39,912 nt of DNA from contig PQAK01000064.1 of assembly GCA_003105225.1 (NCBI GenBank), positions 1 through 39,912 of the forward strand, read 5' to 3'. The notes beneath the pieces were generated by a model. That model saw only the letters and a program-made list of their open reading frames with translations. It was not told the DNA's origin and did not search any database. A program made the translations under genes and the position numbers. The DNA is from Deltaproteobacteria bacterium. Its GTDB lineage: Bacteria; Desulfobacterota; Deferrimicrobia; Deferrimicrobiales; Deferrimicrobiaceae. This document shows positions 11,925 through 14,195 of the stretch, piece after piece (the stretch's first letter is position 1; each line of letters starts with the position of its first letter).

Positions 11925-12496
11925 AACTCCCCGGCGCTCCACTCCGACAGGGCGCGCGCCGCGGCGGCGCGCACCGCCTCGCTCTCCGCGCGGGCATGGA
12001 GGAGGATCTTTTCCCAACCGTCCTTGTCGGCGACCCGGGCGTAGGCGGCAACCGCCTTGCCGGCGACTTCAGGGTCGGGGTGGACCATGTATTTCGCGAG
12101 GATGGGGGCCAGTTCCTTCCTGCGGGACACCCCCAGGGTTTCCAGGAGGTTCCCCAGCACCACCCCCTTTTCCTTCGGAAGGCGTTCGACCAGGACCCTC
12201 AGGACGGCAACGGTCGGGGAGCAGGCAAGCGCGCGGGCCGCAGCCCCCCGGACTTCCTCCTCGCCGTCGTTCAACGCCGCCAGCAGCAGGGAGACCCCTT
12301 CCGAGCCGCCGATGTCCTCCGCGGAGAACACGACCCGCACCCGCTCCTCAAGGGTGCCGGTCTGAAGCGTCTTCATGTAGGATGCGACGGATCGCTTCGC
12401 ATGGAGCCGGTCCAGGGAGAACTCCGCGGCCTCCCGCACCGCCGGCGACGGATCCGACAGCAATCCCCGAAGGGTTCCCTCAATCCGGTCGATCAC
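11921..12496 (-). CDS. HEAT-repeat protein (GTG start overlapping upstream stop)
   Basis: DPSPAVREAAEFSLDRLHAKRSV...LNDGEEEVRGAAARALACSPTVAVLRVLVERL...HARAESEAVRAAAARALSEW. Confidence 0.8.
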   Translation of the reverse strand: MIDRIEGTLRGLLSDPSPAVREAAEFSLDRLHAKRSVASYMKTLQTGTLEERVRVVFSAEDIGGSEGVSLLLAALNDGEEEVRGAAARALACSPTVAVLRVLVERLPKEKGVVLGNLLETLGVSRRKELAPILAKYMVHPDPEVAGKAVAAYARVADKDGWEKILLHARAESEAVRAAAARALSEWSAGEF

Positions 12497-13476
12497 GGCA
12501 GCCTCCCCCCTTTCCACGGCAGATCTCCCGCCGACGGCACGGCCGGTGTGCCGGCCGCGCTGCGCACGGCGTCGAGAATCGACAGTTCCAGGGCGCGCGC
12601 ACCCAGCATCGCTACCTGCATCACGTTCCCTTCACGCCCCGAGCAGCCGGTAGAGAGGGCCACAACGAGGTCCCCGTCCATCGGCGTGTGAACGGGGCGT
12701 ATGGCGCGGGACAGCGCTCCGTGCGCCATTCTTGCGACCCCGATGAGCTCCTCCCGCGACAGCAGGTCCGCCGTGGCCACCACGGCAAGCGTCGTGTTCC
12801 CGCTTGCGAACGGCTCCCGGCGGAATCCCTCCCGGAACCGTTTCTCCGTCCATGCGGGGCTTCCCCCCTCCGCGTCCCGGGCCCCTGCGACCCATTTCCC
12901 CGTATCCGGGTCCACCACGTCCCCGAATGCGTTCACGACCGCACAGGCGCCGGCGATCGTTCCGCCATCCCCTGCACTGGCCGTCCCGAAGCCTCCCTTC
13001 ATCGCCCGCCGGATGCCGAACGCCTTGCCGACCGTCGCCCCTGCGCCCGCTCCGACGGATCCGCGGGCCGGGGGGCCGGCGGAAGCCCGGGACGCCGCGA
13101 TGCGCCCCATCTCGGGAGTCGGCCGGAACGACGGATCTCCGAAGGCCAGGTCATAGATCACGGCGGTGGGAACGATCGGAACGACGCCGCCCGGCGTGCG
13201 GAATCCCACCCCCGAATCCTCCAGGTGGCGCATGACTCCCGACGCGGCGTCCAGCCCGAAGGCGCTCCCGCCGGCGAGCACGAGCGCATGCATGCGCCCG
13301 GCCGGATGGGGTCTCAGAAGGGAGTCCATCTGGCGGGTGCCCGCCGCCTCCCCACGGATGTCCGCAGCTCCCGCGGCGCCCTGCGGGAACACCAGCACGG
13401 TCACGCCGGAGCCGCGCGCGAAGTCCTGTTCGTGCCCGAGCAGCACGCCGGCGACGTCGGTGATCGAACCTGGCAT
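12493..13476 (-). CDS. P1 (DmpA/S58-type) family peptidase
   Basis: MPGSITDVAGVLLGHEQD...ALVLAGGSAFGLDAASGVMRHLEDSGVGF...GDGGTIAGACAVVNAFGDV...SGNTTLAVVAT. Confidence 0.9.
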   Translation of the reverse strand: MPGSITDVAGVLLGHEQDFARGSGVTVLVFPQGAAGAADIRGEAAGTRQMDSLLRPHPAGRMHALVLAGGSAFGLDAASGVMRHLEDSGVGFRTPGGVVPIVPTAVIYDLAFGDPSFRPTPEMGRIAASRASAGPPARGSVGAGAGATVGKAFGIRRAMKGGFGTASAGDGGTIAGACAVVNAFGDVVDPDTGKWVAGARDAEGGSPAWTEKRFREGFRREPFASGNTTLAVVATADLLSREELIGVARMAHGALSRAIRPVHTPMDGDLVVALSTGCSGREGNVMQVAMLGARALELSILDAVRSAAGTPAVPSAGDLPWKGGRLP

Positions 13477-13516
13477 CCGCCCTCCGCAATGCGTATAGTC
13501 TTACCGGAGCCCGCCC

Positions 13517-13723
13517 GGTTCGTCAATCCGGCCGGTCTCAAGGGATGCGTTTCGGAAGAGACCAAGCAACGAGAGGGTCGATGCGCCGGGCCAGCGAGGC
13601 ACCCGACTGAGGCGTACCCGCTGGGTACGGTGAAGGAGGGTAACAAAGCTGGAGCGGATGCAGCGGCACTCGAATGCCGGTATCTGAGGAAATGTATCCC
13701 TTGGGACCGGTGGTTGACGGTCC
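13517..13723 (+). ncRNA. Candidate rod-shaped structured RNA (6S-like architecture) or MITE-like inverted-repeat element; family not assigned
   Basis: CCGGTCTCAAGGGATGCGTTTC (13532-13553) pairs over all 22 positions, with three G-U wobbles, to GAAATGTATCCCTTGGGACCGG (13689-13710); outer CGTCAA/TTGACG (13521-13526/13714-13719); inner AGAGACC/GGTATCT, 3'-side hairpin CGGCActcgaaTGCCG, CCAGC/GCTGG, ACCC/GGGT, apical CGTACCCgctGGGTACG. Confidence 0.5.
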
Positions 13724-13743
13724 TGCGTGGGGAAACGTACACT
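13714..13743 (+). promoter_or_regulatory. Candidate sigma70-type promoter for ruvX
   Basis: TTGACG (13714-13719) - 18 bp - TACACT (13738-13743), about 20 nt upstream of the ruvX ATG at 13764; the -35 coincides with the outer arm of the RNA candidate. Confidence 0.4.
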
Positions 13744-13763: not shown

Positions 13764-14195
13764 ATGGATCGGATCCGCGGAAGGATGCTCGCGATCGACT
13801 TCGGCAGCCATCGCATCGGCGTGGCGGTATCCGATCCCCTGGGCATCACCGCGCAGCAGCTTCCTGCGATCCGCAGGGAAGGGGACAGGAAGGACATCGA
13901 AGCGATCGCCTCGCTGGCGGACGCATACGGCGCGGACTCCGTGCTGATCGGCCTTCCGCTCCTCCCCTCCGGAACGGAGGGGACGCAGGCGGCCAAGGTG
14001 CGGAAATTCATGCTGAAGGTCCAGGAACGCCTGGGATTGCCGGTCATCCCGTGGGACGAACGGTTCACCACGGTCCAGGCGGAGCGTCACCTCATCGAGG
14101 CGGGAATGCGGCGCGAAAAGCGCAAGGACGTCCGGGACAGCCTCTCCGCCGCGCTGCTCCTGCAATCCGCGCTGGATGCCCGGAACCGGAAGTAG
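13764..14195 (+). CDS. ruvX: Holliday junction resolvase-like protein RuvX/YqgF
   Basis: MLAIDFGSHRIGVAVSDPLGITAQQLPAI...VLIGLPLLPSGTEGTQAAKVRKF...PVIPWDERFTTVQAERHL. Confidence 0.95.
   Translation: MDRIRGRMLAIDFGSHRIGVAVSDPLGITAQQLPAIRREGDRKDIEAIASLADAYGADSVLIGLPLLPSGTEGTQAAKVRKFMLKVQERLGLPVIPWDERFTTVQAERHLIEAGMRREKRKDVRDSLSAALLLQSALDARNRK

Follow-up and report, generated by a model that had tools for sequence, protein, structure and literature searches.

In the window analysed here (the whole stretch of DNA, 39,912 nucleotides of contig PQAK01000064.1 from a Deltaproteobacteria bacterium of the family Deferrimicrobiaceae), a gene for an S58 family peptidase occupies 12493-13476 on the minus strand (Pfam Peptidase_S58, 5.8e-29), and its divergent neighbour, ruvX, occupies 13764-14195 on the plus strand (Pfam RuvX, 3.7e-41; the start is approximate). 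The interval between the two genes holds a long hairpin, which an earlier note on this DNA had proposed to be a 6S-like RNA or, alternatively, a MITE. At the heart of this hairpin lies a rod-shaped element of 179 nt at 13532-13710 on the plus strand, with terminal inverted repeats (CCGGTC...GACCGG) and without transposase coding capacity, which is recognised both by its absence at the orthologous loci of nine relatives and by dispersed copies at 80-92% identity.

Each of the flanking genes has a native promoter which lies outside the element and is conserved in relatives that lack it. The promoter of ruvX, at 13714-13743 on the plus strand, consists of TTGACG (13714-13719) and TACACT (13738-13743) separated by 18 nt, while that of the peptidase gene, at 13498-13526 on the minus strand, consists of TTGACG (13526-13521) and TAAGAC (13503-13498) separated by 17 nt, and has the form TTGACG-N17-TAGATA in G013 and G020. 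In the orthologous regions of the nine element-free relatives (G001, G004, G011, G013, G015, G017, G019, G020 and G022), the layout is TTCGTCAAT, followed by 2 to about 60 nt and then by GTTGACGG, both of these motifs being -35 boxes. Among the ruvX loci compared, the element is found between both -35 boxes in the window and in G010 only, and on this comparison of loci the element in the window is evidently an insertion between two conserved native divergent promoters. Two features on which the earlier note had drawn are lost as support for its RNA, because both are native promoter DNA in the element-free relatives: the outward extension of the helix through CGTCAA/TTGACG lies outside the element and is formed by the two conserved -35 boxes, and TATAGT at 13494-13499, which had been offered as a possible -10 of the element, is largely conserved in those relatives and falls within the -10 region of the promoter that reads leftward into the peptidase gene.

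The G010 copy (L131), from another genus, has the opposite orientation relative to ruvX. It is 91.6% identical to the window element over the full length, as compared with 71.9% for about 3 kb of the surroundings, and this difference, together with the flip, points either to a separate insertion whose source was close or to a flipped copy that was kept or exchanged. At the ruvX locus of G015 (L130), a remnant of about 25 nt of a right end of type B (defined below) is present close to the peptidase promoter, which suggests that the locus has been hit by insertion and decay more than once.

Structure and covariation of the rod

The long hairpin upstream of ruvX is a real, well-formed structure. 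The plus strand of 13517-13723 folds at -119.4 kcal/mol as compared with a mean of -77.0 kcal/mol for 200 shuffles, none of which folded as well (z = -9.2, 0/200), and the fold of the minus strand gives z = -5.9. Two of the helices described in the earlier note are present in the plus-strand fold as it had claimed: the terminal helix, in which the 5' arm at 13532-13553 pairs with the 3' arm at 13689-13710, and the apical hairpin CGTACCC-gct-GGGTACG at 13613-13629. The apical hairpin belongs to a conserved core at 13566-13677 on the plus strand (GCAACGAGAG...CACTCGAATGC), which is supported by the alignment, by the consensus fold and by an exact core pattern shared with other genomes, and which is built from short helices and purine-rich internal loops that are common to all sub-families of the element.

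Covariation among homologues, which the earlier note had suggested as a check, proved to be strong along the full length of the rod. In the alignment of 44 diverse copies, the consensus rod contains 52 pairs, at which 93.1% of the cells are paired, and double changes are seen at 31 of these pairs, including all 15 pairs of the helix equivalent to the terminal helix of the window and five of the seven pairs of the apical hairpin (consensus helix 9, in which 95.8% of the cells are paired). Doubly changed cells number 233, whereas shuffling of the columns leaves 73 and displacing the partners by 1 to 3 columns leaves 19 to 52. The small hairpin CGGCActcgaaTGCCG, which had been placed on the 3' side of a central bubble, is not conserved: its bases pair with the 5' strand in the 44 copies, in helices 4 and 3 (paired in 96% and 100% of cells, respectively).

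When fixed G-U pairs are removed, the 44 copies contain 108 G-U pairs against 38 A-C mismatches on the plus strand, a count which is somewhat inflated by the derivation of the consensus structure from the plus strand of the same sequences, and which comes from copies that are related. The asymmetry agrees with the earlier view that it is the plus strand which forms the structure, and it follows that the folded plus strand, as RNA or as single-stranded DNA, appears to be what selection sees. The aligned copies show a full-length plus-strand rod that has been maintained by compensatory change.

Distribution of copies

The genome from which the window comes (2.61 Mb searched, 89.5% complete) contains five further copies, four of them 78-83% identical and the fifth truncated at a contig end, as well as a 17-nt fragment. 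A genome-wide search for copies had been put forward in the earlier note as a way of recognising a MITE, and the dispersed, diverged copies that it returns back the MITE-like alternative. In these copies the apical core is conserved, and the terminal arms differ in sequence yet remain self-complementary. Of 24 genomes of this family searched with blastn, 20 contain copies (2 to 15 or more per genome), and none are found by the same search in more distant relatives.

The covariance model R1 has matches in 37 of the 297 genomes of the phylum, from many families. The matches that were folded are mostly rods, the stronger of which have CTAG-like ends and the motifs GCAAGGCGC, GAGGCGTAC/GTACGCC and GCAACGCAGC, while the weakest matches (E around 1e-4) may be due to chance or may be remote. 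The exact core pattern occurs in 75 stretches of other, named genome contigs, mostly from related Deltaproteobacteria, the remaining labels including Gemmatimonadetes, Nitrospirae, Actinomycetota, Bacillota and Myxococcales; no copies were found in viral contigs or in plasmid or phage collections. R1 copies number 42 and 29 in genomes labelled Gemmatimonadetes, 9 and 6 in genomes labelled Nitrospirae, and at least 132 and at least 150 in genomes labelled Actinomycetota, where the phylum labels are those of the submitters. One of the Actinomycetota records (JAENIX; G019/G320) matches a genome placed in the family of the window, and its label is probably a mislabelling; because of this match, the phylum of G318 and G319 is uncertain. 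Spread across phyla is likely, judging from three separate Gemmatimonadetes assemblies.

Sub-families and modular composition

The copies can be divided by their ends into type A, to which the window copy belongs and which has CCGG...CCGG ends, and type B, which has YTAGTG.../...CACTAR ends, with a core common to both. In G020, rods of three lengths (165, 250-292 and about 500 bp) share the end sequence TAGTGYACCGTCTCRYAAATA. In the rods of about 500 bp (L178-L181), the core has an additional, strongly structured module of roughly 330 nt spliced into it, and the inside of these rods is found in both orientations between identical ends. Type A elements are also found inserted within 250-bp B-ended rods, and nesting of one copy within the core of another is seen at least six times in G319, each time at an identical position following GCGCGA (e.g. 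L267:829-1001 and L281:13545-13717), an arrangement which is probably a composite that itself amplified.

Further dispersed modules (e.g. CGGCAGCGAGCGGGCGCAAGGTCGCGAGCGTAGCG), which build rods of 250-290 bp and recur across the genus, were observed at L183-L188 in G020. The copies at L030 (G016) and L032 (G012), which are apparently at the same locus in two species, have the same core, whereas their terminal arms are of a quite different kind, pyrimidine-rich/purine-rich (CCCCTCCCC / GGGGAGGGG). An 859-bp stretch at L182 (G020:C14:788-1646) was rejected as a candidate for a longer autonomous element, since it consists of an ORF of bS16 (rpsP) type, identified by eye, with a B-ended rod on either side.

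Insertion sites

The presence of the element at orthologous sites is patchy. The copy on contig C140 of the window's own genome has an element-free orthologue in L043, and four congeners of G020 precisely lack a B-ended composite of about 466 bp that G020 carries at the stop codon of the gene upstream. The precise junction of this composite has a 3-nt TAG/TAA match, which is compatible with no duplication or with a duplication of up to 3 nt. Type B ends repeatedly coincide with the stop codons of neighbouring genes. In G319, about 55 copies are present in 384 kb (twenty stretches chosen for having copies), and 51 of 52 lie outside predicted genes, as defined by heuristic gene calls.

Interpretation and alternative explanations

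The evidence presented above points to the feature in the window being one copy of a large family of MITE-like, non-autonomous mobile elements, a reading to which a probability of roughly 0.93 is assigned, and the rods as a group are apparently an undescribed family of mobile structured repeats. In the mechanism that is proposed for their movement, the plus strand would become single-stranded, as single-stranded DNA or as an RNA copy, and would fold back end to end; a putative enzyme supplied in trans would then recognise mostly the shape, together with a few bases (the YTAGTG.../...CACTAR ends in type B and the conserved core); and intergenic sites would tolerate the insertion, in many cases exactly at a stop codon, since the end of the element supplies a TAG. 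This best explanation as a whole, a MITE-like element including movement as a folded single strand, is considered quite probable, and the dependence of movement on the single-stranded fold is judged to stand at even odds. Compensatory evolution among the copies of a mobile element points to the folded single strand as the unit under selection, which makes the question of the enzyme directly testable. A broader proposal is put forward tentatively and is held to be somewhat improbable when all of its parts are taken jointly: that the rods represent a new, wide-ranging class of mobile element, the bacterial equivalent of a SINE-like or hairpin transposon, in which a covarying rod-shaped single strand (RNA or single-stranded DNA) with a conserved core would be read by a putative shape-reading enzyme, and which nests, grows in modules, reaches hundreds of copies and occurs in genomes of different phyla.

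The rods could instead be a multicopy regulatory or structural RNA (a 3'-UTR stabiliser, an attenuator or a small RNA) that owes its spread to mobility and its retention to an RNA function, as with transcribed ERIC, NEMIS and REP repeats. The conserved internal loops exceed what mobility alone seems to require and so leave room for such a function, which would also be in keeping with the strong covariation, the G-U asymmetry, the placement of copies directly after stop codons, and the annotation of a similar central palindrome as predicted short RNAs in Geobacter metallireducens (PMC2700814). A sense bias is seen in the co-directional gaps of G319 (27 ++ vs 11 --, from heuristic gene calls), whereas a mixed set has no orientation bias (22 ++ vs 23 --). 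Retention for an RNA function is unlikely on balance, given that the copy in the window has no conserved promoter of its own and is located upstream of both native promoters, between their divergent -35 boxes, and that the family is patchy at orthologous sites.

If the family consisted of classical MITEs, a DDE transposase would act on double-stranded terminal inverted repeats at CTAG or CTNAG targets, and an IS481- or IS5-like enzyme would be a candidate, going by the target sites of these families. Such a system would account for inverted repeats with few conserved end bases and for the flanks of 38 clean copies, in which CTAG/CTAG and CTNAG/CTNAG looked suggestive (22 of the 38 clean B copies have CTAG at both ends), and it would be consistent with the 3-nt TAG/TAA match at the single precise stop-codon insertion. 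It is nevertheless doubtful: no identity signal of a target-site duplication is found across 110 copies, the sequence of the inverted repeats diverges widely while their pairing and the strand-specific G-U pairs are kept, and the loci of Pfam DDE_Tnp_1 transposases are without matching ends, for which reason these transposases were rejected as movers. The lack of a duplication signal together with the strand-specific fold speaks for movement through a single strand rather than for an ordinary DDE MITE. Insertion into pre-existing palindromes was rejected, since extended complementarity of the flanks is not above chance in the 38 clean copies. An autonomous partner, in the form of a longer element bounded by matching ends, was looked for by end-pattern scans in G020, G011, G010 and G115 and not found.

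A RAYT/REPIN-type system, in which the rods would be outsized REP-like hairpins moved by a Y1 (HUH) transposase, would be compatible with the hairpin substrate, the strand-specific fold and the lack of a duplication signal, and a Y1 gene is present in single copy in many of the family genomes that carry rods. The presence of Y1/RAYT genes does not track the rods, however: G008 has 15 copies and no Y1/RAYT match, and G012, G015 and G016 also carry rods without a detectable Y1 gene. In addition, the RAYT genes that were inspected have another repeat (GGGACGTTCTTAA..) on their flanks, with ends unrelated to the rods and with no rods beside them, and a length of 165-500 nt with a conserved core is unlike that of REPs, so RAYT was rejected as the mover and a system of this kind is considered improbable.

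A 6S RNA gene, whose transcript would bind sigma70 RNA polymerase, was made tempting by the size, rod shape and stable plus-strand fold of the element (6S RNA, RF00013, is likewise about 180 nt long and rod-like), and can be dismissed: the rod has a different sequence, is mobile and multicopy, and is missing from orthologous ruvX loci, whereas 6S is conserved, vertically inherited and present in one or few copies per genome; the promoter claimed for the RNA belongs to a neighbour; the 6S-like 3' hairpin is not conserved; neither RF00013 nor any other Rfam family reaches its gathering score in the window; and a separate, true 6S RNA is present at G000:C184:8218-8399 (+) (RF00013, 81.1 bits, cut-off 46.4), as RF00013 6S is in six of seven other genomes checked. 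Rfam matches with E up to 10 in the immediate region include no 6S, the match to a CRISPR repeat there being at chance level (E = 4.4), and Rfam has no match at any copy in 20 loci that hold other copies.

The reading of the feature as a mobile element therefore corrects a tempting 6S mis-annotation, and it adds an unlisted family of structured repeats which, with at least 150 copies in a single genome, is sufficiently dense to shape genomes. Copies that lie at stop codons or between promoters are relevant to annotation and to gene regulation, and covariation screens for new structured RNAs in these bacteria will meet the rod family, which should be recognised as mobile.

Relation to known repeat families

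MITE-like repeats with transcribed folds are known from bacteria, and include ERIC/IRU, NEMIS/Correia, RUP and YPAL/RU-2 (reviewed in PMC2229807). The rods resemble these repeats in being small, non-coding, palindromic, dispersed in intergenic regions, foldable as RNA and without a transposase of their own. They differ in that covariation extends over the fold of the entire element, whose internal loops are conserved, and in that the ends vary greatly between sub-families; in addition, the rods nest and reach about 500 bp, their core is common to genomes labelled as different phyla, and no TA or other duplication is seen.

The nearest published sighting found, among the open-access literature, would be a family described in 2009 from Geobacter metallireducens (PMC2700814), a deltaproteobacterium in the old sense; the family comprises 24 predicted short RNAs, and its central palindrome is GRCGTAGCGCTGCTACGCC. 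These predicted RNAs are also multicopy and intergenic, and their central GGCGTA..TACGCC palindrome is like the apical hairpin of the rods. They were predicted by BLAST alignment alone, and the likeness is confined to the apical hairpin, by description, so that homology is a lead.

The rods share with integron attC sites (PMC2727003) a recognition by single-strand fold rather than by sequence, which is conjectural in the case of the rods. Whereas attC sites have a variable middle, the rods have a conserved core; neither a cassette array nor an integrase was noticed beside the copies, and inspection by eye showed no attC box motifs.

REPs are sequences of 20-40 bp with GTAG or CGTC tags that are moved by RAYT Y1 transposases (PMC3733652). 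Like REPs and REPINs, the rods are intergenic hairpin repeats for which single-strand movement is plausible, and they are set apart by their length of 165-500 nt, their conserved core, their other ends and the lack of a consistent association with RAYT.

A single-copy RAYT-like Y1 gene was observed at L231 (G000:C60:4054-4374), with orthologues at L232-L239, and has an inverted repeat of its own, GGGACGTTCTTAA...TTAAGAACGTCCC, which is unrelated to the rods.
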